The notes under the pieces were generated by a model, which was given only the letters and a program-made list of their open reading frames with translations, made no database searches and was not told the origin of the DNA. Both the position numbers and the translations under genes were made by a program. This document shows positions 29,601 to 51,946 of a stretch of DNA of 64,000 nucleotides, piece after piece. The stretch spans positions 1,426,001 through 1,490,000 of the forward strand of contig NZ_CP048263.1 in assembly GCF_019469165.1 (NCBI RefSeq), written 5' to 3'. Each line of letters begins with the position of its first letter. The first letter of the stretch is position 1. The stretch is from Gilliamella sp. ESL0443. GTDB taxonomy: Bacteria; Pseudomonadota; Gammaproteobacteria; Enterobacterales; Orbaceae.

Positions 29601-31073
29601 AATATTTTTAGCTGTTTGAATTGACGTATAGCCCTGTCCATTATTCGTTACATTTATGCCATTAAGATTTCCATGAATTGTGCCATTTGACTGAATAACG
29701 CTCATATTAGAGGTTGTCGAATTGTTATTGATTGCCCTAATTCCATCGTTTTGAGCACCTTCAACAACACCAGAAGTTGAAATGATCGTCGACTTTTTAC
29801 CATTATTAGTGATATTTATGCCATTATTATGACCTTTAATCGTACCTGATATCTGATTTAATTTTATATTATTAGAACTATTACCATTTACAACTACAAT
29901 ACCATCTTGTTGATCACCCTGAATATTATTTTTAGTTGAGATAGTGGTATCACCATTACCATTATTCAATAAATTCACACCATTCACATGACCATAAATA
30001 CTACCGCCTAACTGTCTTAAAGACATAGCAGTTGATGTATCTGAAAGATTTTTAGCAACAATACCATCAATTTGCTCACCTGTTACCGAACCAGAAATGA
30101 TTAAATCACTAAATCCATTACCATTATTAAGAATATTAATACCGTTATTATGACCTTTAATTTGAGAATCAGCCATTTGCGTTAAAAAGACATCTGATGT
30201 TGTACTTGATGACTCTGAATAAATTGCATCATTATTACGACCTTCAACATAACCAGCAATGGTGATATCAGTTTGTTCCTTACCATTATTATAAGCGGCC
30301 AAACCATAACTTTGCCCACTAACCGTACTACCATCATATTGATTAATTGTAATATTCTTGCCATTAGTGCTATTTTTAACAAATATACCTTCACTACTCA
30401 ATCCATTCACATTACCGGAAACAATGATTTCAGAGATACCATTCCCTTGATTTTCAGCACTTATTCCACGATTATGCCCTTCAATACTGCCTCTTGATTG
30501 ATTAATAGTTAAATCGGTAGATTGAGTCCCATTGAGCACTGATATACCGTTATCCTGATTACCAGAGATTATTCCAGCTGTATTAATAATGGTTAAACCT
30601 TTACCATTATTAGTAGCCTCTATGCCCGATTTACTCCCTCTCGTTTCACCACTCACTAATTGTGTTATTTTGATATCTTGTGAATTGCTACTATTTTGAG
30701 CATTAATTCCATCCCCTCCGTTACCAAAAACTTTCGCTAATGTATTGATGCTCAAAATACCATTGCCATGGTAATTAATTTCTACCCCATTTTTACTACC
30801 TGTAATGGATCCATCAGATTGGACAAATGAGAAAATATCAGAAGAATTTGTATTTTCATACCCATTACCGTTGGGATTATTTACATCACCGGTACAAGCC
30901 TGATTATTTGGATCGCTAGTAATACACTGAGCAAAGCTTGGATTTGTCATTGCTAAAGTTATGCTTGTTGTAGTAATAAATTTGATTAGAAATGCTTTAC
31001 CTTTAAATTTTCCTTTCCTTGAATTACTAACAGCATATTGCGAATTCAAAATTAACTTATTTATTTTATTCAT
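26667..31073 (-). CDS. Type V autotransporter (classical, AIDA-like) with repetitive passenger
   Basis: 1468 residues. An extended signal peptide ([10 protein letters not shown], then a basic stretch, hydrophobic core, cleavage near NPSFAQ) leads to a passenger. About 14 imperfect units of roughly 48 residues span about 75-770, each with GxIxGxxNGI, NNGxGxT and GxVxGxxxDGI elements, which fits a right-handed beta-helix. A PL-type stabilising region follows to about 1110. A linker of nine (T/N)-N/P triplets (EPTNPTNP...) comes next, encoded by 9-base repeats at 27655-27737. The last about 280 residues form the 12-strand beta-barrel, ending in Trp rather than the usual Phe. The likely role is surface adhesion or biofilm; the ligand is unknown. 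Confidence 0.9.
27655..27737. repeat. 9-base tandem repeat encoding the Thr-Asn-Pro linker
   Basis: About nine copies of a GTTGG(A/G)TT(A/T)-type unit, in two sequence variants, encode the (TNP)n linker between the passenger and barrel of the autotransporter. Unit changes keep the frame, so slippage would vary linker length without switching the gene off. Confidence 0.85.
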
Positions 31074-34600: not shown

Positions 34601-35041
34601 AAAAACCAAGCTCAGCTAATTTATGGTGTAATGGATTTTGCTAAGATTGCAGAAGCAATGAACAAACAAGCGCCCGATAAAGAGAAATTATTCGCACTGC
34701 GAAAACAATACTATTACTTCGATAGTCCAAAAGGAAGCCCAAACATTGATTACTCCAAGCCCGGTATGATGTATTTGGATGAAGCTATAGCCGCCGGAGT
34801 TTTGAAGGATGATAATTATCGGGCAATCAAACAGCTTGAAAAAATCACCCCGGATATGGGCGAAGCCTATGATGCCTCACTACTGTTTAGGGCATATATG
34901 CAGCAGAAAAAACTAGATTATGCATTGGAGAGAATGGAAAGAAAACTCGATACTACTGAACTAAAACAGGTGTACCAAACTGCACAAAAACGCCTGCCAC
35001 AATATCAAGAATACTGGCAGGAAAAGTTAGCCAAATTATAA
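31667..35041 (+). CDS. WGR-domain protein of unknown function, tandem copy 1
   Basis: 1124 residues. Residues 1-68 form a WGR domain (FWYITQQDESLTIVFGKIGTKGQTQVKTFSS, KSKIKKGYEEK; the W-G-R core reads FGK). WGR domains occur in PARP-like and MolR/YehI-type proteins and can bind nucleic acid. A Pro/Lys-rich linker (about 90-105) precedes a conserved DDGKEKPWFYLDEWV block. The remaining about 950 residues have no family I can name with confidence. No signal peptide or membrane span, so cytoplasmic. The copy at 35147 starts exactly 3480 bases further and has the same length. The ends are nearly identical and the middle is diverged. Confidence 0.75.
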   Translation: MKYYLEFKDTLSNKFWYITQQDESLTIVFGKIGTKGQTQVKTFSSPADAEKEANKLIKSKIKKGYEEKAIPPTLEQSTCTEKTIIKMPDAPKPKNHPKPTPPKDVIDDGKEKPWFYLDEWVGEGQPNPFDFEELRKVPPKKVAPVKQPPKQSNTPIKKETVTKTPQEQEFDNLKVLLRKYIKQGEQFDIEAKFEQLKALSPNNKEFQIFIKDMLQMIFSKFMKKISPIHFDCIPYLLRIRDPEILFQEIFAQGVMKYIYDRYQTHSESIHYLAEQYLTDYPVQMVDKIVNALQSIFETTQTEEDEKNTPANKFPENVCGFNITFDYKTLEIYALFNERNSKRYYSESLNELEYDGTSYGVEINNQYFVPLLTEKLQKMLDDGFFGGMTDKYFRIALFQTDNILIEIPIEQTYRQTRIFKLESDLKYLEQSEEYYADLLTDTIEEYFALNGVIEQYDTDRILALLKKYIYSCEKEAESKGRSLLRKYKDFDYNKWSLVSLQFEWENFSYKYAYNGVECLVDKGYEPAIIQKQAWDKLGIIDNKPDIKLEKKDDPDDQSETERFYDTFTETDVFCETDTIIARAMPTDGEIYLRFKQESEQAYSDALDYLNNLMAKGYSKIFEGHWLHIYFVAKPEYYSEFAKYVEEYEDFEELELGAGGIACCSHVFFRKAAMYESLHDKIREFVDLTMYELDYSFDLQDEYNSVAGAFAAIALAMTDVKHMDLAIKFALETDGDHEYLAGNFGIVLEKYWGITPETAVAIALLQLTQGQHMYELSSQFYKIPQNLASLTDYYSMNEPKNPYCKLSYLVKYLFGKPSDSLKKLKKLFNNATDPQEKLIYADFYNLVLEALEEEGEVRGQPIIYNLPPKYESESEASTIVDQDFIENPPCVITPLQAKKRGFNVRELETCDSSWIAVIFAPLTITNPYIFDAIIQYYKVRNDIGARSVIIWGAEKAYCFGKRVVIDFSGTPYQVGMGIYGKNQAQLIYGVMDFAKIAEAMNKQAPDKEKLFALRKQYYYFDSPKGSPNIDYSKPGMMYLDEAIAAGVLKDDNYRAIKQLEKITPDMGEAYDASLLFRAYMQQKKLDYALERMERKLDTTELKQVYQTAQKRLPQYQEYWQEKLAKL

Positions 35042-35059
35042 TTAATAAAAAGGTTTACT

Positions 35060-35081
35060 AATTGGGGCTTAAGCCCCAATT
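35060..35081. repeat. Perfect 22-base palindrome between the tandem WGR genes
   Basis: The sequence is its own reverse complement, with a GC-rich GGGGCTTAAGCCCC core. It lies 18 bases after the stop of the first WGR gene with no T-run next to it on the plus strand. It could be a weak terminator or mRNA-stabilising hairpin between the two cistrons. Confidence 0.7.
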
Positions 35082-35146
35082 AACAGGATAAATTCAAATT
35101 ATTCTAATAAATATAAAAAAGATAAGTATAAGGAAAACATAAAACA

Positions 35147-38100
35147 ATGAATCAATATTTTGAATGCATTGATGAAGTGAATAATAAATTTTGGTATATC
35201 GAGCAAAAAGATAACCTTTACACGGTGCTTTACGGTGCGGTTGGAACCGAAGGGCAAAAGCATACTAAGACTTTTGCCTCGCAGGAGGAAGCAGAAAAAG
35301 AAGCCGTCAAAATAATAAAATCAAAAATTAAAAAGGGTTACCAAGAAAAAAACATACCAACAACCCTATTGCCCGCGATAGCCCGATTAAGTCAAATTAT
35401 CAAAATGCCCGATGCCCCAAAACCGAAAAACCACCCAAAACCCATTCCCCCCAAAGATGTGATTGATGACGGTAAAGAAAAACCATGGTTTTACCTCGAC
35501 GAATGGGTTGATGAAGGTGAACCTAACCCATTTGATTTTGACGAGTTACGTAAACCCTCTGTAAAAAAAAACATATCAAAATCAACCAATACATCGGTTA
35601 GTCCATCATCCGCAAAATCTGTAATTGAGTCGCCGCCAATACACGTGAGTCAATCACCCAAAAGTAGCAAAGAATATCTGGATTTAAGAGAATTATCTCG
35701 AAACTATATAAAACAGGGCGTGAATTTTGATGTGGTAGCAACATTTAAAGAATTGAAAACATTAAGTCCGTCTATAGAAGTATTTAATACCTTAGTCAAA
35801 AATACTGTAGGAATTATATTTTCAAAATTTATAGAGAAAATAGCTCCGATACATTTTGATTGCATTACTTATTTTTCAACAATTCTTGATCCAAATATTC
35901 AAATAGCTGAACGAGAATCTAAAGGTGTATTAAAATATATTTTTAATCGTTATCAAACCAGTCCTGTTTCTATTCATCATCTGGCTGAACAATATCTTAC
36001 CGATTATCCGGTACAAATGGTGGATAAAATAGTTAGCGCATTACGATACATTGTTGACACAATTCGAGCTGGTGGTGAAGATAATATTCCAGCTTACAAA
36101 TTACCAAATCATGTTTATGGTTTTTATATTACCTTCGATGAAGGATATCTAAGAATACTCGCTTTAATTCGAGGCGAGAATCCCAAAAGTTATCGATCAT
36201 TTGCTATCAATGATCTAGAGTATAATGCGCTTCAGTATAGTGATCAGATAAATAATCAATATTTTATCCCACTACTTACCGAAAAACTCCAGAAAATGCT
36301 GGATAGTGGTTTTTTTGAAGGTATTACAGATCATTATTTTAGAATTGCTTTCTGCAATAAGGACAATATTTTTATCGAAACACCAATAGAACAAACCTAC
36401 CGACAAACCAAGATACTTGAGCTTGAAAGAGACCTAAAATATCTGGAGCAATCAGATGAATATGATGTAGATTTGCTAACTGACACGATTGATGAATATT
36501 TTGCCTATAATGGCATTATTGATAATTATGATACCGATAGAATTTTAGCATTAATAAAAAAATATCTTTATTCAGGTGAGAAAGAGGCTGAATCGAAAGG
36601 ATGTTCTCTGTTAACAAAATACTGCAATCTTGATTATAACAAATGGCGTTTAGTTGATTTACAGTTTGAATGGGAAAATTTTGCATTTAAATATGCAGAT
36701 GTACATATCAAATACTTAGTTGATAAAGGATATGAACCAGCAATTCTACAAAAACAAACGTGGGATAAGCTGGGCATTAGAGATAGCAAGCCAGGAAAAA
36801 AAGACGATTCAGACAATCAATCAGAAACCGAACGTTTTTATGATACTTTTACTGAAACTGATGTATTTTGTGAAACTGACACCATTATCGCCAGAGCCAT
36901 GCCATGGGGCGGTGAAATTTACTTACGCTTTAAACAAGAAAGTGAACAGGCATATTCCGATGCGCTTGATTATTTAAATAGCTTAATGGCAAAAGGTTAT
37001 TCAAAAATATTTGAGGGTTATTGGCTTCATATTTATTTTGTTGCCAAGCCTGAATACTATCCTGAATTTGCTCGCATTATCAAACAATACCCTGGGCTGG
37101 CCAGTAATTCACATGCCTTTTTCCGCAAAGCTGCCATGTATGAAAGCTTACATGATAAAATTCGAGAGTTTGTTGAATTAACTATGTATCAATATCACTA
37201 CAGTTTAGATTTACAGGATGAAGAATCATCGGTAGCGGGAGCATTTGCCGCCATTTCACTTGCCATGACCGATGTGAAATATATGGATGTGGCAATCAAA
37301 TATGCTAATGAAACTGACGGTGAACATGAATTTTTAGCAAGCCGTTTTAGCAATATTCTTGCAAAACATTGGGGTATAACACCAGAAACAGCGGTCGCAA
37401 TTGCCTTGTTAAAATTGAGTTTTGACTGGTTATCTGGTGGTTTATCAAGTCAATATTATAAAGTACCACAGAATCTTGCTGCATTAACTGAATTTTTCCA
37501 ACATGGTTCAATGTACCATAATAGTAATAAGATTATAGAGATTGCCAGCCGTTTATTTTGGTTTGGCTTTGAAGATGATACGGATATAAAAAGTATAAAA
37601 GCTTTAAGAAAAATTAAAGAGTTATTTAATTCTGCTAGCGATTTCGACGAAAAACTAATTTATGCTGATTTTCATGATCTGGTTTGGGAAGCATTGAATG
37701 AAAAAAATAAAGCGGTGGGTAATAAAATTGAATTTACACCACATAAACCAAAAAGCGATTCCGAAACGTTAATCATCGATGAGCAAGATTTTATCGAAAA
37801 TCCACCTTGTATCATTACACCATTACAAGCTAAAAAACGCGGGTTTGATCTCGATGAATTAGATTCTGATGATTCATTGTGGAAAGTATTTGTTTTTGCC
37901 CCATTAACGATAACGAATCCCTACATTTTCGACGCTATTATCCAATTTCATAAAGTGCAAAATAACATAGGTGTCCACTCTTTTATCATTTGGGGCACTG
38001 AACAAGCGTACCGTTTTGGTAAAAAGGTCGTGATTGATTTCAGTGGCACCCCTTATCAAGTGGGTATGGGAATTTATGGTAAAAACCAAGCTCAACTAAT

Positions 38101-38521
38101 TTATGGTGTAATGGATTTTGCTAAGATTGCTGTTGCAATGAACAAACAAGCGCCTGATAAAGAAAAATTACTCGCACTGCGAAAACAACACTATTACTTC
38201 GATAGTCCCAAAGGAAGCCCAAATATTGATAAATCCAAGCCCGGTATAATCTATTTGGATGAAGCTTTAAGAGCCGGGATTTATAAGGATGATAATTATC
38301 GGGCAATCAAGCAGCTTGAAAAAATCACACCGGATATGGGCGAAGTCTATGATGCCTCACTATTGTTTATGGCATATATGCAGCAGAAAAAACTAGATTA
38401 TGCATTGGAGAGAATGAAAAGAAAACTCGATACTACTGAACTAAAACAGGTGTACCAAACTGCACAAAAACGCTTGCCACAATATCAAGAATACTGGCAG
38501 GAAAAGTTAGCAAAATTATAA
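35147..38521 (+). CDS. WGR-domain protein of unknown function, tandem copy 2
   Basis: 1124 residues, paralogue of the preceding gene with the same layout: WGR domain (FWYIEQKDNLYTVLYGAVGTEGQ, residues about 12-66), Pro/Lys linker, DDGKEKPWFYLDEWVDEGEPNPFDF block and a long helical-repeat-like remainder ending in ALERMKRKLDTTELKQVYQ. DNA is almost identical to copy 1 in the 5' linker segment (35401-35540) and over the last about 480 bases, but clearly diverged at about 35640-36130 and 37480-37760. This mosaic suggests gene conversion after duplication. A GC-rich imperfect hairpin follows at 38548-38582. Confidence 0.75.
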   Translation: MNQYFECIDEVNNKFWYIEQKDNLYTVLYGAVGTEGQKHTKTFASQEEAEKEAVKIIKSKIKKGYQEKNIPTTLLPAIARLSQIIKMPDAPKPKNHPKPIPPKDVIDDGKEKPWFYLDEWVDEGEPNPFDFDELRKPSVKKNISKSTNTSVSPSSAKSVIESPPIHVSQSPKSSKEYLDLRELSRNYIKQGVNFDVVATFKELKTLSPSIEVFNTLVKNTVGIIFSKFIEKIAPIHFDCITYFSTILDPNIQIAERESKGVLKYIFNRYQTSPVSIHHLAEQYLTDYPVQMVDKIVSALRYIVDTIRAGGEDNIPAYKLPNHVYGFYITFDEGYLRILALIRGENPKSYRSFAINDLEYNALQYSDQINNQYFIPLLTEKLQKMLDSGFFEGITDHYFRIAFCNKDNIFIETPIEQTYRQTKILELERDLKYLEQSDEYDVDLLTDTIDEYFAYNGIIDNYDTDRILALIKKYLYSGEKEAESKGCSLLTKYCNLDYNKWRLVDLQFEWENFAFKYADVHIKYLVDKGYEPAILQKQTWDKLGIRDSKPGKKDDSDNQSETERFYDTFTETDVFCETDTIIARAMPWGGEIYLRFKQESEQAYSDALDYLNSLMAKGYSKIFEGYWLHIYFVAKPEYYPEFARIIKQYPGLASNSHAFFRKAAMYESLHDKIREFVELTMYQYHYSLDLQDEESSVAGAFAAISLAMTDVKYMDVAIKYANETDGEHEFLASRFSNILAKHWGITPETAVAIALLKLSFDWLSGGLSSQYYKVPQNLAALTEFFQHGSMYHNSNKIIEIASRLFWFGFEDDTDIKSIKALRKIKELFNSASDFDEKLIYADFHDLVWEALNEKNKAVGNKIEFTPHKPKSDSETLIIDEQDFIENPPCIITPLQAKKRGFDLDELDSDDSLWKVFVFAPLTITNPYIFDAIIQFHKVQNNIGVHSFIIWGTEQAYRFGKKVVIDFSGTPYQVGMGIYGKNQAQLIYGVMDFAKIAVAMNKQAPDKEKLLALRKQHYYFDSPKGSPNIDKSKPGIIYLDEALRAGIYKDDNYRAIKQLEKITPDMGEVYDASLLFMAYMQQKKLDYALERMKRKLDTTELKQVYQTAQKRLPQYQEYWQEKLAKL

Positions 38522-38772: not shown

Positions 38773-39924
38773 ATGTCTAGTCAAATAGTTTCATATGTAG
38801 ATAGAGCAGTACAGTTGTTGAATAAAATCGGCATCATGGTTAAACCTCAGGCTGATGCGCCAATTTTAAAGTTATTGGATAATGTTGCTGAAATTGATAA
38901 AAATCGTATTATCGCCATTGCTCACACTTTGCAACAACAAAGTGCATTTAATGAAGTAGTCCGGGAACAAATTGATGGCGTACATGTTTCTGATCGCTAT
39001 TCTAATATTGTTAAGCATTTTGATAGTATTCGTACCGATATGGAAAAAATGCTTGGTTGGTTAGATGACGGAAAGTTAGATTTTTTGGAAAAAATTAAAA
39101 TGGGTTGGATGACATTTCAACGTGGTTCTATTCCTGATCGTTTTAGTTTAATCAAAAAAACCTATTTAGATGTTTCTAAAGAAACAAGTAATCAAGTCGA
39201 GCGTGAACATATTATTTTAAACGCCTACCAAGATTTCCGTTTTGGACTGAAACAAGCTCAAATCGTTGCTGAAGAAGTACTGCAAATTGCGACAGGTCGT
39301 CTTGAAGAACGCAAACAAAAATTAACCGACGCCATTGCTCAAGTTGATAATTTTACAGGTGATGATCATGTCGCTCGAGGACGATTAGAACTTGCTAGAG
39401 ACGAAGCACTACGCAATGTACAACAAGAAGATAGCCGTTATCAAATCATCTTAGATCTCGCCAATAATTTAACCGTTTCTTATAATTCTGCCGAAGCAGT
39501 ATTTGCAAGATTGCAACAAACAACCTCCATAAAAGAGCGTGTCTACCAACAAAGTGTAAGCTTTTTTTCAACCAACGAAATTGTATTTACTGCATTAAGC
39601 GCTTCTATAACTTCATTGACAGGTTTGAGCGAAAGCACTAAAACACTAGAAGCAATGAAAGATGGTATGAATAAAGGCATTGAAAGTATTGCTACTTCAG
39701 CTAATAAGCAACTTGAAGAAGGTTTAAGAGCTGGTTATGGTTCGACGATTAAAGCTGATTCTTTACGTGCATTAGTTGAAGCCATTGTCAATTATCAAGA
39801 ATCAAGCCAACAATTAATTACAGAGCTAAGAAATGAATCGATTGATAATGCTAAAGAAATCGATCGTATAGTGGAAGATGGAAAACAGCGCTTTAATAAT
39901 ATTATCTTGAAGGTTGATGGTTAA
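38773..39924 (+). CDS. Helical protein of unknown function, first gene of a three-gene operon
   Basis: 383 residues, almost entirely helical, no signal peptide or membrane span. It has coiled-coil-like stretches (about 155-260, LQIATGRLEERKQKLTDAIAQV) and a C-terminal helix rich in Asn/Glu (LITELRNESIDNAKEIDRIVEDGKQ). I do not recognise the family with confidence; it has the general look of cytoplasmic scaffold or toxic-anion-resistance-type proteins, which is only an impression. Its TAA overlaps the ATG of the next gene (TAATG), so the products are probably made in fixed ratio. Confidence 0.65.
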   Translation: MSSQIVSYVDRAVQLLNKIGIMVKPQADAPILKLLDNVAEIDKNRIIAIAHTLQQQSAFNEVVREQIDGVHVSDRYSNIVKHFDSIRTDMEKMLGWLDDGKLDFLEKIKMGWMTFQRGSIPDRFSLIKKTYLDVSKETSNQVEREHIILNAYQDFRFGLKQAQIVAEEVLQIATGRLEERKQKLTDAIAQVDNFTGDDHVARGRLELARDEALRNVQQEDSRYQIILDLANNLTVSYNSAEAVFARLQQTTSIKERVYQQSVSFFSTNEIVFTALSASITSLTGLSESTKTLEAMKDGMNKGIESIATSANKQLEEGLRAGYGSTIKADSLRALVEAIVNYQESSQQLITELRNESIDNAKEIDRIVEDGKQRFNNIILKVDG

Positions 39925-41294
39925 TGCAGGATGTTAAACTTAGTGACCAACTAGGTGCAATGGCAATAATTGATGAATTATATCAAAAACAACAATTACT
40001 ACTTGAGCACCTTGACCGCGAAGGATTACGAGCTAATTTAAAAGAAAACATTAAAACCTTCTATGAAGCCAAAGGTCAAATTGTGGACGATAAAATCGTT
40101 GATGAAGGAATCGATCTTTGGTTTGATAATCGGTTACGGTTTGTTGCACCTAAACGTCCTTGGTTTCAACATTTTCTAGTTCGTTGTTATATCAAAAGAA
40201 AGTTAATATTTAGCCTTTTTAGCATATTCTTATTTATTTTAGCCTTAATCTTTTTTAATAATTTAATCTATACAAGAGACGTTAGACAAGAAATTGATAG
40301 TTACTATAGTCAAATATTAGCGTCGGAAGATTCATTAGCAGAATTACGCAACGAGTTTAAGCAAATTGATAAAACTTCTGTTCATTATGCGCAGATTCCA
40401 GTAAAAAATTTAAAGACCTCAATTTCTAATCTACTTAGCCAGAAAATTATTCCCACAGTCACCAAGCCAACCATTAACGGGGCTTTTATTACAGATGATG
40501 AAAATGATTTAGTTAAACAATTTAAGCAAATTAATGACTCAGTAACCACTAAATTGTCGGATATTAGAACTCAATTAAATATATTAAAAAAATTATTGGA
40601 AGATGATAAGCGGCTAGCTAATTTAATAGATGATGATGAGTTTATAAAAACAAGCAAAGAGTATCACGTACTACAAAATGCAGTCGATACCGTTCTTGAT
40701 AATCTTAATCAAGGACAAAGAGTTATCGATTTCAATCAAATTGAAACACTTTACAATTCCACTGAACGAGCAAAAACCATTATAAATAAAATTCAGATTG
40801 ATAATCAGAAATTATTAGCCCTAAAAGTTCCGAAGTCGGATATGGTACCGGTTATTGCTTTACAAAGTGATTTACAAGCTGACCTAAAAAATCTCAACTT
40901 TGATAAGTTTGAAAATTATCAACAAATGATGTCTTATTATTTCAATCTAGCTCAAACTAATTTGACACTTACTATTGTTGACAAACCTAATTATAAATCA
41001 GGAGTTGAGCGTACCCACGAAAAAACAAACGGTAAATCTTGGTATGTGATTGTCACACCAACAACATCATCCGGAATAGCAACACCGCTATGGGTAACCA
41101 GTATTGAAACAGGTGAAACGAAACTCGTAGATATGTTTGGTCAGCAGGTTTCTCAAAAAGAATTTAATAAGGTTAAAAGAGATAAAATTGCCGATGGGCA
41201 TATTGATGAAAATAAATTATGTAAAAAACCAATTGGTCGTCTAGAATTTAACTGTCCTAATACAGTTAAAACAGGTAGGATTTTAGAGTGGTAA
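39924..41294 (+). CDS. Single-pass membrane protein of unknown function, second gene of the operon
   Basis: 456 residues. About 85 cytoplasmic residues (with ALKENIKTFYEAK-like helical region and a basic KRPWFQHFLVRCYIKRK patch) precede one membrane span at about 92-112 (LIFSLFSIFLFILALIFF). A large extracytoplasmic helical region (about 115-355) follows, then a small C-terminal domain with WYVIVTPTTSSGIATPLWVTSIETGE. The topology (basic residues inside) places the C-terminal domain in the periplasm. Family not recognised. Start overlaps the previous gene by one base, and the end is 2 bases before the ATG of the next. Confidence 0.65.
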   Translation: MQDVKLSDQLGAMAIIDELYQKQQLLLEHLDREGLRANLKENIKTFYEAKGQIVDDKIVDEGIDLWFDNRLRFVAPKRPWFQHFLVRCYIKRKLIFSLFSIFLFILALIFFNNLIYTRDVRQEIDSYYSQILASEDSLAELRNEFKQIDKTSVHYAQIPVKNLKTSISNLLSQKIIPTVTKPTINGAFITDDENDLVKQFKQINDSVTTKLSDIRTQLNILKKLLEDDKRLANLIDDDEFIKTSKEYHVLQNAVDTVLDNLNQGQRVIDFNQIETLYNSTERAKTIINKIQIDNQKLLALKVPKSDMVPVIALQSDLQADLKNLNFDKFENYQQMMSYYFNLAQTNLTLTIVDKPNYKSGVERTHEKTNGKSWYVIVTPTTSSGIATPLWVTSIETGETKLVDMFGQQVSQKEFNKVKRDKIADGHIDENKLCKKPIGRLEFNCPNTVKTGRILEW

Positions 41295-41296
41295 AT

Positions 41297-42745
41297 ATGC
41301 AATCTAGCAATATTGAACGAAGTATTGAAATAAAACTTCAGGAAATCTTTAGTGCAATCGAGAAAACTAATAACGAGGTGCAAAACTCTCGTCAAAAAAT
41401 CCTTGATTTGACAAATAAACAAGTAGAGATTTATCAAAAGATAGCGACTATTTATCTATTAGAATCTCCCCAAAATAACGATTTGGAAATTCAGAAAATC
41501 ATTAAACAGTTAAAGGATTTAAACTGTAATTTAAAAAATAAATCCGGAAATTTAGATCATTTTATTGCTGATTCCCAACAAAAAATGGATGAAACATTAT
41601 TAAAATTAGATGAATTAACCGCGGAAAAGATTCGACAACTTGAAAGTGATGCAGATTATCTATCACTATTAAATAATTATAACATTACTAAAGACGAGCT
41701 AACCAAAGAAACAAAAAACTTCAAAAGTTCACAACAAGAATTTTCAACCAAATTGAAACAATATCAACAAAATTACTATTACAATTATTTAATTAATCGT
41801 CGCTTTGGAGAGAAAAATTATAAAGCCTTCAAAATATTTCGTTATTTAGACTCATGGGTAGCAAGGTTTATCAATTTTTCAGAAAATTTCAAAAATCATA
41901 AAATGCTTAAAGATTTATATAAAGAATCTCAGTTACGGTTTAATAATAAAAAACGAGCATATGAGCAAGCATTAAAAGCAAAAGAGCGTAAAGAACGCGA
42001 GGTTGATACTAACCTAAATTTATCTAAATTGAAAAAAACAATTGCGCTAACTGAGCAAGATTTAGCACATTATAAAAAACAGAAACAAAATACAGAAAAT
42101 ACCTTACAAGAGCTTCAAAAAGGCAATAATTCGCAGTTTAAACTAATTTCAAATCAATTAGTTAAACTGTTACAAAAACAATCTCTAAGTCAACTTAATG
42201 ATTTAACTTTACAAACTAAATCAACAGAAGATGATAAATTATTAGAAAGAATTGTCGCGATAAATAAACAAATACTTGATATTGATGCATATCTTGCCTC
42301 GTTATTAAAAACGCTTAACGAATTAGACAATGTTTATAATCGTTTTGAACAAACATTTTATTTATTTAGGGAAAACAATATTCCTAGCTCAATTTATGAA
42401 TATAACATACCATCGTTCAAGCTTAATGATTTATTAAACCAGTTATTTAGCAATCAAATTTTTCCAGAAACAGTTGTTCAAACCCTTTTTGGGTATAGAG
42501 CAATAAGGAGAGAATTAAAATCATCTAATCATAATTCAGGATGGGCGAGTGACGATTCATCATCAAGGAGATCTTCTTCTTTCTCTTCATCCTCTTCACG
42601 CTCATCATCATCATCTTCCTATTCGAGCTCATCTTCCTCTTCGAGTTCTTCCTCCTCGTCATCTTATAGTTCATCAAGTGACAGTGGGTTTTCATCCAGC
42701 TCATCAACAGGTGGCGGAGGTTTTAAAACGACTGATAGTTTCTAA
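41297..42745 (+). CDS. Coiled-coil protein with Ser-rich low-complexity tail, third gene of the operon
   Basis: 482 residues from the ATG at 41297; an in-frame GTG at 41288 overlaps the previous stop. Residues 1-380 are long coiled coils (Lys/Gln/Glu/Leu-rich). Residues about 418-470 are nearly pure Ser with scattered Tyr, Arg and Phe, closing with STGGGGFKTTDSF. Ser/Gly tails of this sort occur on TPM/YgcG-type membrane-associated proteins, but no TPM domain is visible. No signal peptide. The function of the three-gene unit is unknown; a scaffold linking cytoplasm to envelope is one reading of the architecture. Confidence 0.65.
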   Translation: MQSSNIERSIEIKLQEIFSAIEKTNNEVQNSRQKILDLTNKQVEIYQKIATIYLLESPQNNDLEIQKIIKQLKDLNCNLKNKSGNLDHFIADSQQKMDETLLKLDELTAEKIRQLESDADYLSLLNNYNITKDELTKETKNFKSSQQEFSTKLKQYQQNYYYNYLINRRFGEKNYKAFKIFRYLDSWVARFINFSENFKNHKMLKDLYKESQLRFNNKKRAYEQALKAKERKEREVDTNLNLSKLKKTIALTEQDLAHYKKQKQNTENTLQELQKGNNSQFKLISNQLVKLLQKQSLSQLNDLTLQTKSTEDDKLLERIVAINKQILDIDAYLASLLKTLNELDNVYNRFEQTFYLFRENNIPSSIYEYNIPSFKLNDLLNQLFSNQIFPETVVQTLFGYRAIRRELKSSNHNSGWASDDSSSRRSSSFSSSSSRSSSSSSYSSSSSSSSSSSSSSYSSSSDSGFSSSSSTGGGGFKTTDSF

Positions 42746-43091: not shown

Positions 43092-43103
43092 TTGGAGCGG
43101 GAA
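43092..43103. repeat. Copy of the tRNA-Gly 3' end, candidate attachment-site remnant
   Basis: TTGGAGCGGGAA is identical and in the same orientation to 51870-51881, which is the acceptor-stem 3' end plus CCA of the minus-strand tRNA-Gly and one base beyond. The pair would flank the whole dddY-acuR block as direct repeats, as att sites do for tRNA-targeted islands. Homology does not extend clearly past 12 bases. Confidence 0.5.
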
Positions 43104-43984: not shown

Positions 43985-43999
43985 TAGACAACCGGTCTA
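43985..43999. promoter_or_regulatory. Candidate AcuR-type operator upstream of dddY
   Basis: TAGACAACCGGTCTA fits TAGAC-N5-GTCTA, the same form as the two sites over the acuI promoter. It overlaps a plausible -35 (TAGACA at 43985-43990), which has TTTAAT at 44008-44013 after 17 bases. Binding would therefore block dddY transcription. Operator role inferred from recurrence and position. Confidence 0.65.
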
Positions 44000-44064: not shown

Positions 44065-45339
44065 ATGAAAAAACAACTCGCTCTGATCATGCTAGTCTTT
44101 TGTAGTATGAATACTTTAGCTAAAACGGATGTTCCTAGTTTTATTGATTCAAAGTCTATTGAAAATGCTAAATTTATTTGTCGTAATGCTCCACAGAATT
44201 ATTCTGATGAAGAAAAAATACTAGTTGATAAATTGTGGGATGAAACCATCATATATTTAGGTACTTTAGCAGAAGCACTAAGTACATCTCAGTCACCTGA
44301 TTGCACAAATTCTGACACCGCTATTATACAAACAGGTTCGTCTATCTCACCAAATAAACCAATACGCCAATGTATTATGGATAACCGGGATGTACAAGTA
44401 CTTGTTAAGCATTTGTATACAATTGTCCATAATAAAGAAAAAGCGTTTCAATGTTTTTCACCACAAAAAAGAATAGATGGATTATATAGTCCTAATGACA
44501 CATTAGAAAGACAATCAGATGTTGCTATGTGGTTAAAACGACCATCATTACATAAATACTATCAAAATAGTGACAAAGTTCAAATTCAAACCGCTGGTAC
44601 TAAGTTTTCAGAACAATTTTATTCAGTTACAACTGATGATTCTATCAAAATGCCACTAAATTTTGTAAATGATATCAGTGCCAGAGCACTTCCTACTCTT
44701 TGGGCTAGTGTCGGTTGGGTTCCGATGTACTCAACAAATACAGAAAGAAACCAACACACAGGAGATGAAAATTTTCGTGCGGGTTATGCTTATGCTGAAA
44801 TTATGGGACATTGGGGGTTGCTACAAATTGATTCAATTAATGGTGAAGCAGTAGGAGCTGAAATTGGTATGACAGTTCAATCAGGTAACACTTTTTACCC
44901 TTATCATCATCATGACACAAATGAAATCTATTATACAATTCGAGAACCATCATGTAATGATGGAATTAAACAGTTTGTTGTCTCTCCAGAAGAAAATATT
45001 TTTACCTTATTATCTTCATTGCCAAATCAATTAGTTATTCAATTAGAAGGATCTAAAATAGTGGATTTAGATAGTTATTGGGCGCCAACAACCCCTTCAA
45101 AGGATGCTTTATTATATATTCCCAGAAATTCGATTCATGCTTTTAATCTAACAGAAAAAAAATGTGATAATCAAGATTATGCTCATGTAACCGTATGGGC
45201 AAGAACTAATGCCCATGAAAAAAATGAAGATTATGGTACAACCAATATTTGTCGATTAAAGGATACAACATTACCCAAAGATACCATTAATAAGATAAAT
45301 CCAGATATTATCTGTTATATCAACAGAACTAGTAAGTAG
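44065..45339 (+). CDS. dddY: DddY-like periplasmic DMSP lyase (cupin)
   Basis: 424 residues with a cleavable signal peptide (MKKQLALIMLVFCSMNTLA), a helical N-terminal domain and a C-terminal cupin. The metal/catalytic motif H-x-H-x3-E-x-Y is present as H281, H283, E287, Y289, with the second-motif H358 in PRNSIHAF. Spacing matches my recollection of characterised DddY (His, His, Glu, Tyr, then His about 69-71 residues later). DddY cleaves dimethylsulfoniopropionate to dimethyl sulfide and acrylate in the periplasm. Acrylate-handling genes lie opposite, and both sides carry the same palindromic operator, which strengthens the call. AAGGA Shine-Dalgarno precedes the ATG. A related cupin with another substrate cannot be excluded. 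Confidence 0.78.
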   Translation: MKKQLALIMLVFCSMNTLAKTDVPSFIDSKSIENAKFICRNAPQNYSDEEKILVDKLWDETIIYLGTLAEALSTSQSPDCTNSDTAIIQTGSSISPNKPIRQCIMDNRDVQVLVKHLYTIVHNKEKAFQCFSPQKRIDGLYSPNDTLERQSDVAMWLKRPSLHKYYQNSDKVQIQTAGTKFSEQFYSVTTDDSIKMPLNFVNDISARALPTLWASVGWVPMYSTNTERNQHTGDENFRAGYAYAEIMGHWGLLQIDSINGEAVGAEIGMTVQSGNTFYPYHHHDTNEIYYTIREPSCNDGIKQFVVSPEENIFTLLSSLPNQLVIQLEGSKIVDLDSYWAPTTPSKDALLYIPRNSIHAFNLTEKKCDNQDYAHVTVWARTNAHEKNEDYGTTNICRLKDTTLPKDTINKINPDIICYINRTSK

Positions 45340-45351
45340 TATTTTATATTA

Positions 45352-45387
45352 ATAAACCCTTTAATATATTAAATTTGAAGGGTTTAT
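45352..45387. terminator. Bidirectional terminator between dddY and apbE
   Basis: TAAACCCTT (45353-45361) pairs with AAGGGTTTA (45378-45386) across a 16-base AT loop, between converging genes. T-rich bases follow on each strand. Confidence 0.75.
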
Positions 45388-45405
45388 AATTATCTATTAA
45401 GGTTA

Positions 45406-46356
45406 TTACTCTACTATTTTCTGAATACAGAGATTATTTCGAACAAGCCCATTAGTTAGGTAGATCCTTTCATCACAAGTAATAACAATAGCTTCAATAT
45501 TCGTTTGCTGATTTAAAAATTCGATACTTTGCTGAGCGTTTGACAGGAAACCAGCAGTACTCCATATTTCACCATCAAGAGATTGCTTTGAAATAATAGT
45601 AATACTCGCAATATTAGTAATAATAGGCGCTCCAGTAATTGAATCAAGTATATGGTGATAACGTTTATTATCAACAGAAAGAAATCGTTCATAAATTCCA
45701 GATGTTACAACAGAGCAATCTTTTGTTAGAACAGCACAAATCATATTACCACGTGGCTTAAAAGGATTTTGAATACCCACAACCCAGTTATTATTGAGAT
45801 TATTGGGTGAACAACCAATAGTCAGTACATTTCCTCCTAAATCAATAAACCCACTACTTACTCCATGATTGAGAAATATTTTTTTTATTTGATCAGCAAA
45901 ATAGCCTTTAGCAATTGAACCCAAATCAAGTTCCATTCTCTCTTTTGTTAGATAAATAGTTTTATCTTTTTGATTGAGTAAAATATTTTTGGGATTAACT
46001 AATGATAGGCAATCAGCTATTTCTTGATCAGTTGGGTGCTTTGCGTTATTGAAACCTATTCGCCAAGCCTTAACTAATGGACCGATTGCGATGTTGAATG
46101 GGTTATTAGCTTGTATACTTATATTTTTACTTAGTTTAATTAACTCAAAAATATCCTCTTTAACATATATCGGTTTTCTTCCTGCATTTTTATTGATTTC
46201 CATTAACTCGGAGTGTGTTCGGTTTACAGTAAAACGCGTTTCAAATTCTAATAGTAAATTATAAGCTTCGTTAAGGACTTTTTCACCATGAGTATGATAA
46301 ATAAGTAGATTAATCATTGTTCCCATCAGAGGAAAGTTCGCCTCATATCTATTCAT
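45406..46356 (-). CDS. apbE: Cytoplasmic ApbE-type FMN transferase
   Basis: 316 residues. ApbE features: MGTMINLLIY at the start, ELDLGSIAKGYFADQ, SGFIDLGGNVLTIG, the metal/FAD block VVTSGIYERF, and YHHILDSITGAP. The family attaches FMN through a phosphoester bond to Thr in a D-x-x-S-G-A-T motif of target flavoproteins. There is no signal peptide or lipobox, so unlike the classic periplasmic ApbE it should act in the cytoplasm. Its target is the neighbouring three-domain reductase, which has that motif and also lacks a signal peptide. Last gene of the acuI-reductase-apbE unit. Confidence 0.9.
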   Translation of the reverse strand: MNRYEANFPLMGTMINLLIYHTHGEKVLNEAYNLLLEFETRFTVNRTHSELMEINKNAGRKPIYVKEDIFELIKLSKNISIQANNPFNIAIGPLVKAWRIGFNNAKHPTDQEIADCLSLVNPKNILLNQKDKTIYLTKERMELDLGSIAKGYFADQIKKIFLNHGVSSGFIDLGGNVLTIGCSPNNLNNNWVVGIQNPFKPRGNMICAVLTKDCSVVTSGIYERFLSVDNKRYHHILDSITGAPIITNIASITIISKQSLDGEIWSTAGFLSNAQQSIEFLNQQTNIEAIVITCDERIYLTNGLVRNNLCIQKIVE

Positions 46357-46447
46357 TACTAGGACACCTTATATTTTTGGCGGAGAGTGTAATTTAAAAG
46401 AAGAATGAATGGTGATCATCCTTCTTTTATTTAATGACATCTCTTAT

Positions 46448-49400
46448 TTAAATCGACGCAGCCGCGCTTTCGCCTGCGATTCGACCATAGGTAAAAATAT
46501 CAATTAAGGCATTACCACCTAAACGATTACCGGCATGAATTCCACCAGCAACTTCCCCCGCAGCATATAATCCACTAATAACATTACCCTGTTTATTAAT
46601 TACTCGAGCATAAGTATCAATTTTAAGCCCACCCATTGTATGATGAACAGAGGGTTTTCTTGGTGTGGCATAAAATGGGGCTTGTTCTACTTTTAAACTC
46701 AATGCACTTTTATGAAACTCAGGATCTTTTCCTTGTGTAACATAATTGTTATATTTATTTATGGTTTCTATTAATGAAGACGCAGGCACACCAATTTTAT
46801 CGGCTAATTCTTCTAAAGAATCAGCCTGATAAATAATACCTTCTTTAATTTCTCTTTCAATAGTTTCGTCTGAAGTATTCGCTGCTGTTTGTCGAATTTT
46901 TTCGTCTGCTATCATATAAACTAAACCGCCATTATCTATAAAGGCTTGCGATAAAATATCTCGGCTTTCACACTCATTTATAAACCGTTTACCTTGTTGA
47001 TTAATAAAAACGAAGTTCTCAGGTGGAACGATTAGCCCGGTAAGTAATGCACCAGATTTAGGGTCTCCTACTGGCATAAGTTGTACAAACCCCATACCAA
47101 CTAAATCAGCACCAACTTCTTCTCCCATTTTGATACCATCACCAACCAAAGCAGGTGAGTTAGTTGTTTTTATATCATCCGCGATTTCTTTCCAATAGGT
47201 ATTATATTGTTTAATCATTTGTGTGTTGGCACCAAAACCGCCACAGGCTAGAATAACGCCATTATTTACATGAATAATCATTTTTGAACCATTAGCTTGC
47301 TTCGCTTCAATGCCAATAACTTTACTATCTTTTAAGATCAGTTTTTCTGCTTTAGTATCTACTATGATTCGCCCACCTTTTTCTTCAATACGTTGTTGTA
47401 ATACATTAATGAACTCAACCCCCTTCGGACGTTTTGGTTTATGACTTCTACGCCATAAGGCACCCACAGGAATTTCTACTACGCTTCGATCAAAGTCAAC
47501 GCCTTTTTCCGTTAGCCAATGAATTGATTCCATTGAACGGTTGGTGAGCGTTTTTACTAAATCATATTGGCCGTAAATAATTTGTCCATTAAGAGCCGTT
47601 CTTTTACCACCTAAATAGGTTTGAATTCTGTGCAGCTCAGTAGAATCAAATAGAAAATCACCTTGCTCGGTTTTTGCTAGGTATTCTTTTATTTGCTGTT
47701 TTAATATTTGAAAGTCTTGTAGATATTCAGCTGTAAACTCTGATTCAGGCATATTGATAAGCTCAACGAGTGTTTGTTTTTCTCCAGCTAAACTAGGGAA
47801 TTGTTTTTGCCATTCTGGTTCGGCGGCATTAACCCAACCTCCAGTACGAATTGTATTACCTCCAATTGCCGGAAATTTTTCTAATAAAATAACAGTTTTC
47901 CCTTTATCAATAGCTGATAACGCTGCGCTTAATCCAGCACCACCACCACCGACAACAACAATATCCACCGTTTCTTCTATAAGCTGAGATGACCACTCTA
48001 CAGGTACTTTCGCTCGATAACGTAGTGCTTCCGAGTTGCCTCCTGCCATATCAACCGCCTGAGCAACACCATTAATAACAGCTTGACTGCTGACCGTTGC
48101 ACCTGAAATCACATCAACGTTAAGAGTTTGTCCATCAATAATTTGTTGAGGTATACGCTCAAATGCTGGATTAGCAATACCTTCTGACTCTTTAGATTGA
48201 TCAACTAAAATATCTAGAATCTTATTTTCAGAGAAGGTGACTGTAATCGGTAGTTCACCATTATGTCCTCGACCGAAGGCGGTGTATTTACCTGCATTAA
48301 AACGAATGTCAATATTTTGTAATGCTTTAATTTTTTGATATTTTTGCTGTTCAGCTAAACTATCAACAATCATAAAATCCATAACATGCCATAATGGGAA
48401 TGGGATTTTAAGTTGTTGTCTTTGCGTGATATCAGCAAAAGTAGCACATAGCTCATTATTTTTAACTTTCGTTGCCCACGTAGGTTCAACCAAATAACCT
48501 TTACCAATACTAACAAGATCATAACCACTCAATAGTGCATTTTCTGCATCAATACCTTGTGCTATACCACCTACACCAATAACTGGAATTTTCGCTAAAG
48601 TGGTTGATTGTAGTTTACGATATTGGCTAATAAGTTGCTGTTTATTATCAGTATCAACAATAGATGTTCTATCCCAATTGCCCATAGAGAAATGGATATA
48701 GTCCAAACCATAAGAACTCAATTTATTTAAAAGATACATGGAATCAGAAAAACGAATCCCCGGTTGTTCAATTTCTTCTGGTGAGAAGCGATAACCGACA
48801 ATAAAATCACTTTTACCATATTCCTGTATAATTTGGTGGACTCTTTTCAATATCGCTAAGGGAAAAGACGACCTTTTTTCAATATCTCCACCCCACTTAT
48901 CTGATCTTTGATTGGAATGAGGTGAAAAAAATTGCTGAATCAGGTAGGTATTTGCACCATGAATTTCAATGCCATCAAAATTTGCTAATAAAGCACGTTT
49001 GACTGCTTGCGCAAAATTTTCAATCATTAATTCAATTTGCTCTGACGTCATTTGCAATGGTGTTACTGCATTATCCCTAAGCGCAGCCACTGGGCTAGCA
49101 GAGATCGGCTGATGACCACCATTATATTCAGGATTAGCCATTCTACCAGCATGATAGATTTGTATAATCGCTTTAGAACCTTTGACTTTAATTGCCTCAG
49201 CTAATTGTTTTAGACCTTCTATTTTACTGTCGTGATCAATCCCAAGTGCACCAGGAAAAGCTCTTCCATAGTTTTCAACAAAAGCACTCTCGACAATGAT
49301 AGCGGCCGCATCACCCGAGCGTAATGCATAATAATCGATCATCTCTTGCGTAACGCTACCATCAAAAAAAGCGGATTCAATTGTCATTGGCGCCATGACA

Positions 49401-49459
49401 ATTCTATTTTTTAATACTGCCCCAGATCTTAAAGTTAATTTATTAAATAGTTGGCTCAT
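46448..49459 (-). CDS. Three-domain NADH:acrylate (or fumarate) reductase
   Basis: 1003 residues, no signal peptide. Residues 1-about 370 form an OYE-like NADH-oxidising FMN domain (LTLRSGAVLKNRIVMAPMT, EIHGANTYLIQQFFSPHSNQRSD). About 385-470 form an FMN_bind domain with flavinylation motif DVISGATVSS, Thr455. About 498-1003 form a flavocytochrome-c-type FAD_binding_2 domain (VDIVVVGGGGAGLSAALSA, ending YAAGEVAGGIHAGNRLGGNAL). This exact layout is known from Klebsiella NADH:fumarate reductase and Vibrio NADH:acrylate reductase (Ard). Neighbours AcuI, AcuR-like and DddY-like favour acrylate. It would reduce acrylate to propionate at the expense of NADH, both detoxifying it and acting as an electron sink. 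Confidence 0.85.
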   Translation of the reverse strand: MSQLFNKLTLRSGAVLKNRIVMAPMTIESAFFDGSVTQEMIDYYALRSGDAAAIIVESAFVENYGRAFPGALGIDHDSKIEGLKQLAEAIKVKGSKAIIQIYHAGRMANPEYNGGHQPISASPVAALRDNAVTPLQMTSEQIELMIENFAQAVKRALLANFDGIEIHGANTYLIQQFFSPHSNQRSDKWGGDIEKRSSFPLAILKRVHQIIQEYGKSDFIVGYRFSPEEIEQPGIRFSDSMYLLNKLSSYGLDYIHFSMGNWDRTSIVDTDNKQQLISQYRKLQSTTLAKIPVIGVGGIAQGIDAENALLSGYDLVSIGKGYLVEPTWATKVKNNELCATFADITQRQQLKIPFPLWHVMDFMIVDSLAEQQKYQKIKALQNIDIRFNAGKYTAFGRGHNGELPITVTFSENKILDILVDQSKESEGIANPAFERIPQQIIDGQTLNVDVISGATVSSQAVINGVAQAVDMAGGNSEALRYRAKVPVEWSSQLIEETVDIVVVGGGGAGLSAALSAIDKGKTVILLEKFPAIGGNTIRTGGWVNAAEPEWQKQFPSLAGEKQTLVELINMPESEFTAEYLQDFQILKQQIKEYLAKTEQGDFLFDSTELHRIQTYLGGKRTALNGQIIYGQYDLVKTLTNRSMESIHWLTEKGVDFDRSVVEIPVGALWRRSHKPKRPKGVEFINVLQQRIEEKGGRIIVDTKAEKLILKDSKVIGIEAKQANGSKMIIHVNNGVILACGGFGANTQMIKQYNTYWKEIADDIKTTNSPALVGDGIKMGEEVGADLVGMGFVQLMPVGDPKSGALLTGLIVPPENFVFINQQGKRFINECESRDILSQAFIDNGGLVYMIADEKIRQTAANTSDETIEREIKEGIIYQADSLEELADKIGVPASSLIETINKYNNYVTQGKDPEFHKSALSLKVEQAPFYATPRKPSVHHTMGGLKIDTYARVINKQGNVISGLYAAGEVAGGIHAGNRLGGNALIDIFTYGRIAGESAAASI

Positions 49460-49537
49460 TAGGAGTGTCCTCTGTTATGTTAATCATCTATCCATAGTAC
49501 GTATTGTCGATTTATCAAATTAGTGTTTAGCTGGATG

Positions 49538-50530
49538 TTATTGGTTTACATCAACAATAAACCGACCTTTGATTCTCCCTGAGAACATATTCTCAGCAGC
49601 TAGTTGACATTGATCCAAGGTAATAATATTAGCGATATGATTAAGTTGTTGTGCATCTAAGTACGTTGCAAGAAAATTCCATGCTGCAATACGTTTTTGA
49701 TAAGGGGTCATAACACTATCAATCCCTGCTAATGTTATCCCTCTTAAAATAAACGGAGCAACAGTTGATGGAAAATCCAAACCTTGAGCCAAGCCACAAG
49801 CAGCAACAATGCCACCATATTGAATTTGGGCACAAATATTTGCTAAAGTATGTGATCCTAATACATCAATAGCAGCTATCCATTGTTCCTTTTGCAATGG
49901 TTTCCCTGACTCACTTAGTATTTTTCTATCAATGCAATGACTAGCACCAAGTTGGTATAAATAGTCCGTATCCTGCATTTTAGATGTAGCCGCTGTTATT
50001 GAATAACCTAATTTAGCCAGTAGCATAATTGCGATAGAACCAACTCCTCCTGTTGCTCCTGTAACTAAAATACGACCTTGCTCTGGTTTAACGCCATGAT
50101 CAATAATGCATTGCACACATAATGCTGCCGTATAACCAGCGGTACCAATATTCATTGCTTGTTGTGGTGTCATATTAGGTGGTAAAGGAATTAACCAGTC
50201 TGATTTTAAATAAGCATATTGGCTTAAACATCCCCAATGTGTCTCACCGCACCCCCAGCCATTTAAAATAACAGAATCGCCTTCTTTATATTGGCGATTG
50301 ACGCTGTGAATAACCGTCCCAACACCATCAATTCCCGGAATCATTGGCCACATCCTTACCACGGGTCCTTTATTAGTGATAGCTAATGCATCTTTATAAT
50401 TTAGGCTTGAATACTGAACTTGAATAAGTGTATCGCCTTCTTGTTTAAATAATTCTTTTTTTGAGAGAGAACTAACCTCGCAAGAGAATTTGGTATCATT
50501 TTTTTCTAATAGAATGGTTTTAAACAGCAT
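49538..50530 (-). CDS. acuI: AcuI acryloyl-CoA reductase, copy 2, in the acrylate locus
   Basis: 330 residues, same MDR family as the gene at 24186 and about 70% identical by eye (shared LNGWGCGETHWGCL, GIDGVGTVI, LVTGATGGVGSIAI). It reduces acryloyl-CoA to propionyl-CoA with NADPH. The promoter is well defined: on the minus strand TTGATC (50602-50597), 18 bases, TATAAT (50578-50573), then AAGGA 7 bases before the ATG. Two TAGAC-N5-GTCTA palindromes cover the spacer/-10 and the start-site region. The reductase gene follows after 78 bases and apbE after another 91. Confidence 0.9.
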   Translation of the reverse strand: MLFKTILLEKNDTKFSCEVSSLSKKELFKQEGDTLIQVQYSSLNYKDALAITNKGPVVRMWPMIPGIDGVGTVIHSVNRQYKEGDSVILNGWGCGETHWGCLSQYAYLKSDWLIPLPPNMTPQQAMNIGTAGYTAALCVQCIIDHGVKPEQGRILVTGATGGVGSIAIMLLAKLGYSITAATSKMQDTDYLYQLGASHCIDRKILSESGKPLQKEQWIAAIDVLGSHTLANICAQIQYGGIVAACGLAQGLDFPSTVAPFILRGITLAGIDSVMTPYQKRIAAWNFLATYLDAQQLNHIANIITLDQCQLAAENMFSGRIKGRFIVDVNQ

Positions 50531-50554
50531 ATTTTATTCCTTAGCAATCATTAC

Positions 50555-50569
50555 TAGACAATCGGTCTA
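50555..50569. promoter_or_regulatory. Candidate AcuR-type operator, start-site side of the acuI promoter
   Basis: TAGACAATCGGTCTA fits TAGAC-N5-GTCTA. It is downstream of the -10 over the expected transcription start. Its centre is 22 bases from the second site, two helical turns apart on the same DNA face. Confidence 0.72.
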
Positions 50570-50572
50570 ATA

Positions 50573-50602
50573 ATTATAGACCGATCGTCTAGTAATGATC
50601 AA
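50573..50602 (-). promoter_or_regulatory. acuI promoter
   Basis: Minus-strand TTGATC and a perfect TATAAT separated by 18 bases. Both operator palindromes overlap or adjoin the -10, the geometry of a repressor-controlled promoter. Confidence 0.7.
50577..50591. promoter_or_regulatory. Candidate AcuR-type operator, spacer side of the acuI promoter
   Basis: TAGACCGATCGTCTA fits TAGAC-N5-GTCTA and lies between the -35 and -10 boxes, overlapping the -10 edge. Together with the site at 50555-50569 it forms an almost perfect 21-base inverted repeat with one mismatch. Confidence 0.72.
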
Positions 50603-50730
50603 TAGAATTTGTAAGGTTAATTATTTATATGCTGTATAGGGGCAATTTAAGAGGAAAGAGCCAAGTCAACAAACGTGAGTTTTTGCTCTAATCTGTTAGT
50701 AAAATGAATAAAGAAACAAAAATATAATAA

Positions 50731-51366
50731 TTAATCTGAAGGTTCGGATTTTATAGATAGTAAAAACTGTCGCATAAATATATCAAGCGGTTCGGCATTC
50801 TTAATCAATTTAGAACGAGTGACCGCACCTTCCCAGCCTAACCAGAAAAATACCGCAAGCTCTTCACAATTGACATTAGATTTTATTTCTTTTATTTTCT
50901 GAGCTTGTTGCAAACAAATTGCTATTTTCTGCTGCCAGCTTTGTAAAATATCCACTAATAAAGTGCTATAACCTTCGGGTAAAAGCGACTCCTCTTGTGT
51001 TAATTCTCCGATTAAGCAGCCCCTATCAAAATTATATTTTGCCATACTCAATTTTGCATCTTCATAAAACGACTTAATTCGAGATAAAGGCAATTCAATT
51101 GACTCATTTAAAAGGTGTTTATCTAACTTATAACGAAAAAAACTATCATAACTTTCTATGATTGCTTTACCGAAATCTTCTTTGCTTTTGAAGTAATAAT
51201 AAAAAGATCCTTTTGGCACACCAACTTTTTTTAAAATATTTTCAATATTTGAAGATACATAACCATTGATGGTCATAGCCTCCACACCACTGCGGATCAA
51301 TGCCATTTTAGTATTATTGCCTTTTTTTGAAAGCGAATGCTCTTTTGGGGTATCAATGACTGCCAT
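50731..51366 (-). CDS. TetR-family regulator, AcuR/NemR-like
   Basis: 211 residues. The N-terminal HTH (SNIENILKKVGVPKGSFYYYFKSKEDFGKAII) is followed by an all-helical ligand domain with RGCLIGELTQEES, a block like those of AcuR and NemR repressors. AcuR represses acuI and DMSP-lyase genes and is released by acrylate in Rhodobacter. The gene lies 200 bases upstream of acuI on the same strand, and the palindromes at acuI and dddY are its likely targets. I saw only a half-site (GTCTA at 51398-51402) before its own start, so autoregulation is unclear. Confidence 0.82.
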   Translation of the reverse strand: MAVIDTPKEHSLSKKGNNTKMALIRSGVEAMTINGYVSSNIENILKKVGVPKGSFYYYFKSKEDFGKAIIESYDSFFRYKLDKHLLNESIELPLSRIKSFYEDAKLSMAKYNFDRGCLIGELTQEESLLPEGYSTLLVDILQSWQQKIAICLQQAQKIKEIKSNVNCEELAVFFWLGWEGAVTRSKLIKNAEPLDIFMRQFLLSIKSEPSD

Positions 51367-51870: not shown

Positions 51871-51946
51871 TGGAGCGGGAAACGAGGTTCGAACTCGCGA
51901 CCTCAACCTTGGCAAGGTTGCGCTCTACCAACTGAGCTATTCCCGC
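51871..51946 (-). tRNA. tRNA-Gly (GCC)
   Basis: 76 bases including an encoded CCA. The acceptor stem GCGGGAA pairs with TTCCCGC, the D-loop reads AGCTCAGTTGG, the anticodon is GCC within TTGCCAA, and the T-arm GTTCGAAC is intact. Its 3' end abuts the dddY-acuR block, and a 12-base copy of that end recurs at 43092-43103. Confidence 0.97.

Follow-up and report, generated by a model that had tools for sequence, protein, structure and literature searches.

In this work, a block of five genes in Gilliamella sp. ESL0443 (GCF_019469165.1) was analysed that probably serves the cleavage of dimethylsulfoniopropionate (DMSP) and the disposal of the resulting acrylate. The genome is a single contig of 2,404,493 bases, and the stretch analysed, hereafter the window, comprises positions 1,426,001-1,490,000 of contig NZ_CP048263.1 (64,000 nucleotides); coordinates are window positions unless stated otherwise. 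The five open reading frames (ORFs) that a first-pass annotation had listed were all found intact at 44065-51366. The forward strand carries dddY (44065-45339), which encodes a 424-amino-acid (aa) DMSP lyase of the periplasmic type. The reverse strand carries apbE (45406-46356), for a FAD:protein FMN transferase; an ard-type gene (46448-49459), for a 1003-aa flavoprotein reductase; acuI (49538-50530), the genome's second copy of the acryloyl-CoA reductase family; and acuR (50731-51366), for a TetR-family acrylate-responsive repressor. The match of the five genes to the claimed families is far beyond chance. Transcription of dddY and that of the remaining four genes converge, so dddY must form a separate unit; no terminator was found between dddY and apbE. 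The guess that the DNA came from an Orbaceae genome was correct, the genome grouping with named Gilliamella, a culturable genus known from bee guts. Contamination was ruled out as a source of the block by the single 2.40-Mb contig (completeness 100, contamination 0.01) and by the Gilliamella-type genes flanking both sides.

The lyase is homologous to DddY of PDB entry 5xkx over residues 33-399 (E 1e-75) and scores 36 bits against PF16867 (cut-off 27). The residues H281, H283, E287, Y289 and H358, named in the first-pass annotation, are present and invariant across 24 aligned DddY relatives. So is Y278, absent from that earlier list; its aligned counterpart in the solved DddY 5y4k is Y260, the position mutated there. 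The alignment and the structure work took in 24 of the 77 homologues found. The spacing of metal ligands and Tyr equals that of His56, His58, Glu62 and Tyr64 of DddK. A structural check set beforehand asked for the DddY fold with its N-terminal region, and the predicted structure folds as DddY does from residue 35 to residue 424. The N-terminus is signal-peptide-like and no signal peptide is evident in ApbE or the reductase, as had been claimed, all three being judgements by eye alone. The protein shares the whole-mature-protein fold and the metal and catalytic residues with the DddY lyases of Alcaligenes, Shewanella and Ferrimonas (PDB 5xkx, 5y4k), but it belongs to a divergent clade with Xenorhabdus and Gilliamella. 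In a tree of 72 of the 77 homologues (four below 385 aa and P0077 were omitted), this insect-linked clade, containing Gilliamella and Xenorhabdus sequences, is distinct with branch support of 98/89. Relatives at 62-83% identity in other Gilliamella-clade sequences retain the active site. Two Xenorhabdus proteins within the clade (P0005, P0009), from insect-pathogenic symbionts of nematodes, are DddY relatives at 51-53%.

The three domains claimed for the reductase, Oxidored_FMN (old yellow enzyme, OYE), FMN_bind and FAD_binding_2, are all present, and the proposed flavinylation residue Thr455 lies in the motif S452-G-A-T455. ApbE scores 252 bits against PF02424 and is 54-57% identical to the ApbE proteins encoded next to ard in three further genomes from the order. 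There ard is likewise followed by apbE (Ard 75-76%), with acuI on the opposite side once; neither dddY nor an AcuR-type operator was found in the 19 kb read around each. Aligned with solved fumarate reductases, the enzyme keeps R833, H939/H940 and R979 and has M795 and G808 where fumarate reductases have His and Glu. We take these two positions to be the site holding the second carboxylate of fumarate. All 12 of the other OYE-type relatives shown have the Met/Gly pattern. The His and Glu are kept in three resident paralogues of 923-924 aa in other Gilliamella-genus genomes and in the resident paralogue of this genome (G000:C1 1,005,371-1,008,142, genome positions), which adjoins another apbE. 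Because Met/Gly replaces His/Glu here while the resident paralogues keep His/Glu, the enzyme is, judging by this alignment, unlikely to be a fumarate reductase. Named relatives among the matches listed (best 120 of 3308) come from Gilliamella, Photobacterium, Vibrio, Morganella, Endozoicomonas, Staphylococcus and others. A tree was built from 63 of the first 65 listed, two below 980 aa being omitted, together with the enzyme of Gilliamella sp. wkB108 (G012). In it the window reductase groups with P0079, P0080, P0081, G. apicola P0085 and wkB108 in a single clade (SH-like approximate likelihood-ratio test, SH-aLRT, 96).

The ARD of Vibrio harveyi is reportedly an NADH:acrylate reductase that works with ApbE. 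It was likened by layout, not by V. harveyi sequence: the three domains and the ard-apbE order are as in Vibrio-type genomes, whereas the Gilliamella ard is linked to dddY and lies under AcuR-type operators. In Shewanella, the dddY clusters hold flavocytochrome c genes, and the reductase is described as about 506 aa long, without OYE and FMN_bind (PMC3338564). DMSP cleavage is there also paired with a FAD_binding_2 reductase and AcuI, but the reductase of the Gilliamella block has three domains and no evident signal peptide, and is accompanied by ApbE. According to the same source, acuI is frequently near dddY. As a separate observation, flavoproteins of 819-832 aa (L096-L107 and others), present in 13 of 44 Orbaceae genomes, are 57-58% identical to Ard in their FMN_bind/FAD part. 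The two that were checked have the Met/Gly pattern, and these proteins are possibly further enoate reductases.

AcuI and AcuR pass their equivalog cut-offs (NF051456, 481 vs 440 bits; NF051457, 261 vs 247 bits). In Rhodobacter sphaeroides the AcuR operator, TAATAGAC/n6/GTCTATTA, overlaps the promoter motifs TTGATT and TATTAT, and its mutation gives constitutive expression, as reported in PMC3017554. The upstream regions of dddY and acuR have no long k-mer in common; an operator with matching half-sites was spotted by eye in that output and tested afterwards. The window holds three copies of TAGAC-N5-GTCTA against 0.03 expected. One (43985-43999, forward strand) lies 65 bp upstream of the start of dddY, and a tandem pair (50555-50569 and 50577-50591, reverse strand) lies between acuR and acuI; none was found before acuR itself. 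The second operator of the pair sits inside a promoter-like TTGATC-18-TATAAT (50573-50602, reverse strand), itself a weak signal (1 match found vs 1.5 expected in shuffles). Across 44 Orbaceae genomes the motif adjoins acuI or acuR in all 17 with an AcuR above 200 bits and in none of the 27 others. In two relatives (G009, G026) acuR lies about 6 kb off and the operators remain beside acuI. Among 79 named DddY loci, the motif occurs at most 200 bp before acuI in eight, and in six of the eight with a recognised AcuR. Operator placement lends good support to a predicted control by AcuR of both dddY and the acuI-ard-apbE unit. The acuR-acuI-dddL operon of R. sphaeroides (PMC3017554) is alike in its TetR-type AcuR, AcuI and cupin lyase, and in TAGAC/GTCTA half-sites overlapping a promoter. 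It differs in that the Gilliamella lyase is DddY, convergent and with its own operator, that ard-apbE is added, that the spacer is 5 rather than n6 as printed, and that operators here precede acuI and dddY.

The resident acuI of this genome (24186-25181, reverse strand) keeps its usual neighbours and is 67% identical to the copy beside ard. It stands without the acuR and operators found there in relatives, the genome's AcuR being the one at 50731-51366. Among named proteins, the AcuI beside ard is nearest to those of Orbaceae ESL0721 and ESL0727 and of Snodgrassella, which suggests exchange among bee-gut bacteria.

Judged from its edges and from related genomes, the dddY-acuR block is an 8.8-kb genomic island in a variable slot at tRNA-Gly. 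The tRNA-Gly(gcc) at 51871-51946 (reverse strand) forms the right edge and adjoins rsmD in all 30 rsmD loci read, including this one. At the left edge, 11 bases from the 3' end of tRNA-Gly reappear as a direct repeat (43093-43103, forward strand; 0.02 expected per window in a first-order Markov simulation). This repeat has five copies genome-wide, two being the island edges; an exact 12-base copy was looked for and not found. Five relatives have homologues of the genes to the left (38773-42745), then 1.7 to 6.6 kb of different content, then tRNA-Gly and rsmD. In Gilliamella sp. wkB108 (L172 13499-17300) ard is the only one of the five genes present beside tRNA-Gly and rsmD, reversed relative to rsmD. 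Tandem AcuR-type operators stand about 620 bp upstream of it with no dddY, apbE or acuI between, and the acuR-acuI of that genome is on a different contig. No integrase was found inside the island, where the only ORFs of at least 80 aa are the five named genes, and their G+C content (0.32-0.38) is not outstanding. A search for DddY in plasmids gave no match, and one in viral contigs gave 32 pattern stretches, none of them a relative; no vehicle was found. In another relative (G034; L196 7748-15700, reverse complement), about 7.9 kb of other content is bounded by the identical tRNA-Gly-end repeat and encodes, among others, a 719-aa protein that is P-loop-type by eye, which makes the tRNA-Gly site look like an integration hotspot that these genomes share.

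We hypothesize that this Gilliamella island encodes the cleavage of DMSP to dimethyl sulfide (DMS) and acrylate as well as the subsequent disposal of the acrylate, a reading to which we give a probability of roughly 0.83. Periplasmic DddY, whose family, fold and catalytic residues were established above, would split DMSP, its activity and export being predicted. Acrylate reaching the cytoplasm would free AcuR from the operators before dddY and acuI-ard-apbE, and thus induce both units. ApbE would attach FMN to Thr455, and the reductase, whose family and active-site pattern are described above, would then convert acrylate to propionate with NADH in the cytosol. AcuI may act as a second guard, reducing any acryloyl-CoA to propionyl-CoA. 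The gain would be detoxification and probably also NAD+ regeneration during fermentation, and we infer that acrylate serves as an electron sink.

Several observations weigh against this reading. DddY scores far under both NCBIfam DddY cut-offs (430 vs 650 and 283 vs 800 bits); these models are narrow, one carrying Shewanella in its name, and on its predicted fold and residues the protein is filed as a divergent DddY despite the missed cut-offs. The Met/Gly pattern also occurs in four of four shorter FAD_binding_2 paralogues shown, so that it disfavours fumarate and is no proof of acrylate. No consensus promoter was found at the dddY operator. Genome-wide, the operator motif is no commoner than its reversed control (5 vs 3 here, below the control in many other genomes) and two of the five sites in this genome are unexplained singles; because the reversed motif is about equally frequent, the operator case rests on placement and not on number. 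There is no transporter gene inside the island. The best TIGR02188 match is 87 bits against a cut-off of 725, so no acetyl-CoA-synthetase-type enzyme passes, whereas the same search of 14 control genomes gave matches in 12, over the cut-off in seven. The first-pass annotation had called the locus complete for DMSP cleavage and acrylate disposal. The DddY fold and the AcuR-type operators linking dddY to the acrylate genes uphold cleavage and disposal, but "complete" goes too far, given that no synthetase passing the cut-off was found that would supply AcuI with acryloyl-CoA.

DddY is also rare. It occurs in one of the 44 Orbaceae genomes and in 13 of 394 genomes sampled across the order, full-length Ard being found in two of the 44. 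For each of DddY, Ard and AcuI a relative sits on a 9,691-base contig, and G. apicola DddY and Ard each sit on a 156,555-base contig; judging by the equal lengths, it is probably the same contig for each gene set. A survey by tblastn of the neighbours of 79 other named DddY loci (flanks up to 10 kb, some shorter) found an AcuI relative at 46, a FAD_binding_2-type reductase at 43 and AcuR at 8, with the OYE part and ApbE at none. Because no other DddY locus shows the OYE part or ApbE in these flanks, the five-gene set is not general.

Among the alternatives, the island could chiefly be a module for acrylate or enoate detoxification and fumarate-like respiration (acuR-acuI-ard-apbE), with acrylate coming from elsewhere and dddY a recent or idle passenger. 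The lone ard of wkB108 at this site, ard-apbE without dddY in three other genomes and a resident acuI in most Orbaceae genomes agree with this, but dddY is intact, has its own AcuR-type operator, and has Gilliamella-clade relatives at 62-83% that retain the active site; we consider it unlikely. It is more doubtful that the reductase acts on another 2-enoate (e.g. methacrylate, urocanate or a cinnamate) and adjoins dddY incidentally. Close FAD-domain paralogues share Met/Gly, source annotations of relatives among the matches listed include "urocanate reductase" and "fumarate reductase", and among solved proteins urocanate reductase is the closest in sequence. That enzyme, however, has different residues at the positions aligned with M795/G808, the island reductase is in an operon with acuI under common AcuR operators, and the wkB108 ard also has its operator pair upstream. 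Least probable, and quite improbable, is a true DddY that in the gut works chiefly on some related compound, for instance dimethylsulfoxonium propionate (DMSOP, yielding dimethyl sulfoxide and acrylate), with DMSP minor: DddY enzymes do cleave DMSOP and the clade is distinct and below both NCBIfam cut-offs, but DMSP is cleaved more efficiently (PMC10686828), the catalytic residues are all conserved, and DMSP is reported from every plant tested (PMC11464771).

DMSP is best known as a marine compound, its catabolism having been studied mostly in the sea. PMC11464771 describes low-level DMSP as universal in the plants tested and calls for study of terrestrial cycling, and supply to the bacterium via plants is plausible. 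No title on pollen DMSP was found among the papers listed by a literature search. We tentatively propose, as a possibility we would not rate above even odds, that plant-derived DMSP from pollen or nectar is a conditional electron acceptor for Gilliamella. An exchangeable AcuR-controlled cassette would link cleavage in the periplasm to the NADH-dependent reduction of acrylate in the cytosol, and DMS would be released by bees that carry it. If true, the DMSP cycle would reach into pollinator guts. The enzyme families and the regulator are known; the assembly and the habitat are new, with dddY, ard and apbE apparently tied to a single acrylate signal. What makes the question directly testable is that this regulated island, probably for DMSP cleavage, occurs in an insect-gut genus that can be cultured. 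A search in which subscription papers were mostly outside the scope, and which is no proof of unpublished status, found nothing joining Gilliamella with DMSP or Orbaceae with dimethylsulfoniopropionate. Within the same scope, Gilliamella appeared with acrylate only in the context of anaerobic digestion, and honey bee with dimethylsulfoniopropionate only in titles on other subjects.

Further features lie to the left of the island. The forward-strand genes at 39924-42745, which in relatives likewise flank the hotspot on its left, encode a protein of the DUF6384 family and another of 485 aa that ends in a long Ser/Gly-rich tail and has no Pfam or NCBIfam match. Two tandem, mutually similar proteins of 1124 aa are encoded at 31667-38521 (forward strand), and at the matching place in G026 no fewer than three such genes follow one another. 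The reverse strand at 26667-31073 encodes a 1468-aa protein, autotransporter-like by eye with a Pro-Thr-Asn repeat tract, which is variable among relatives.

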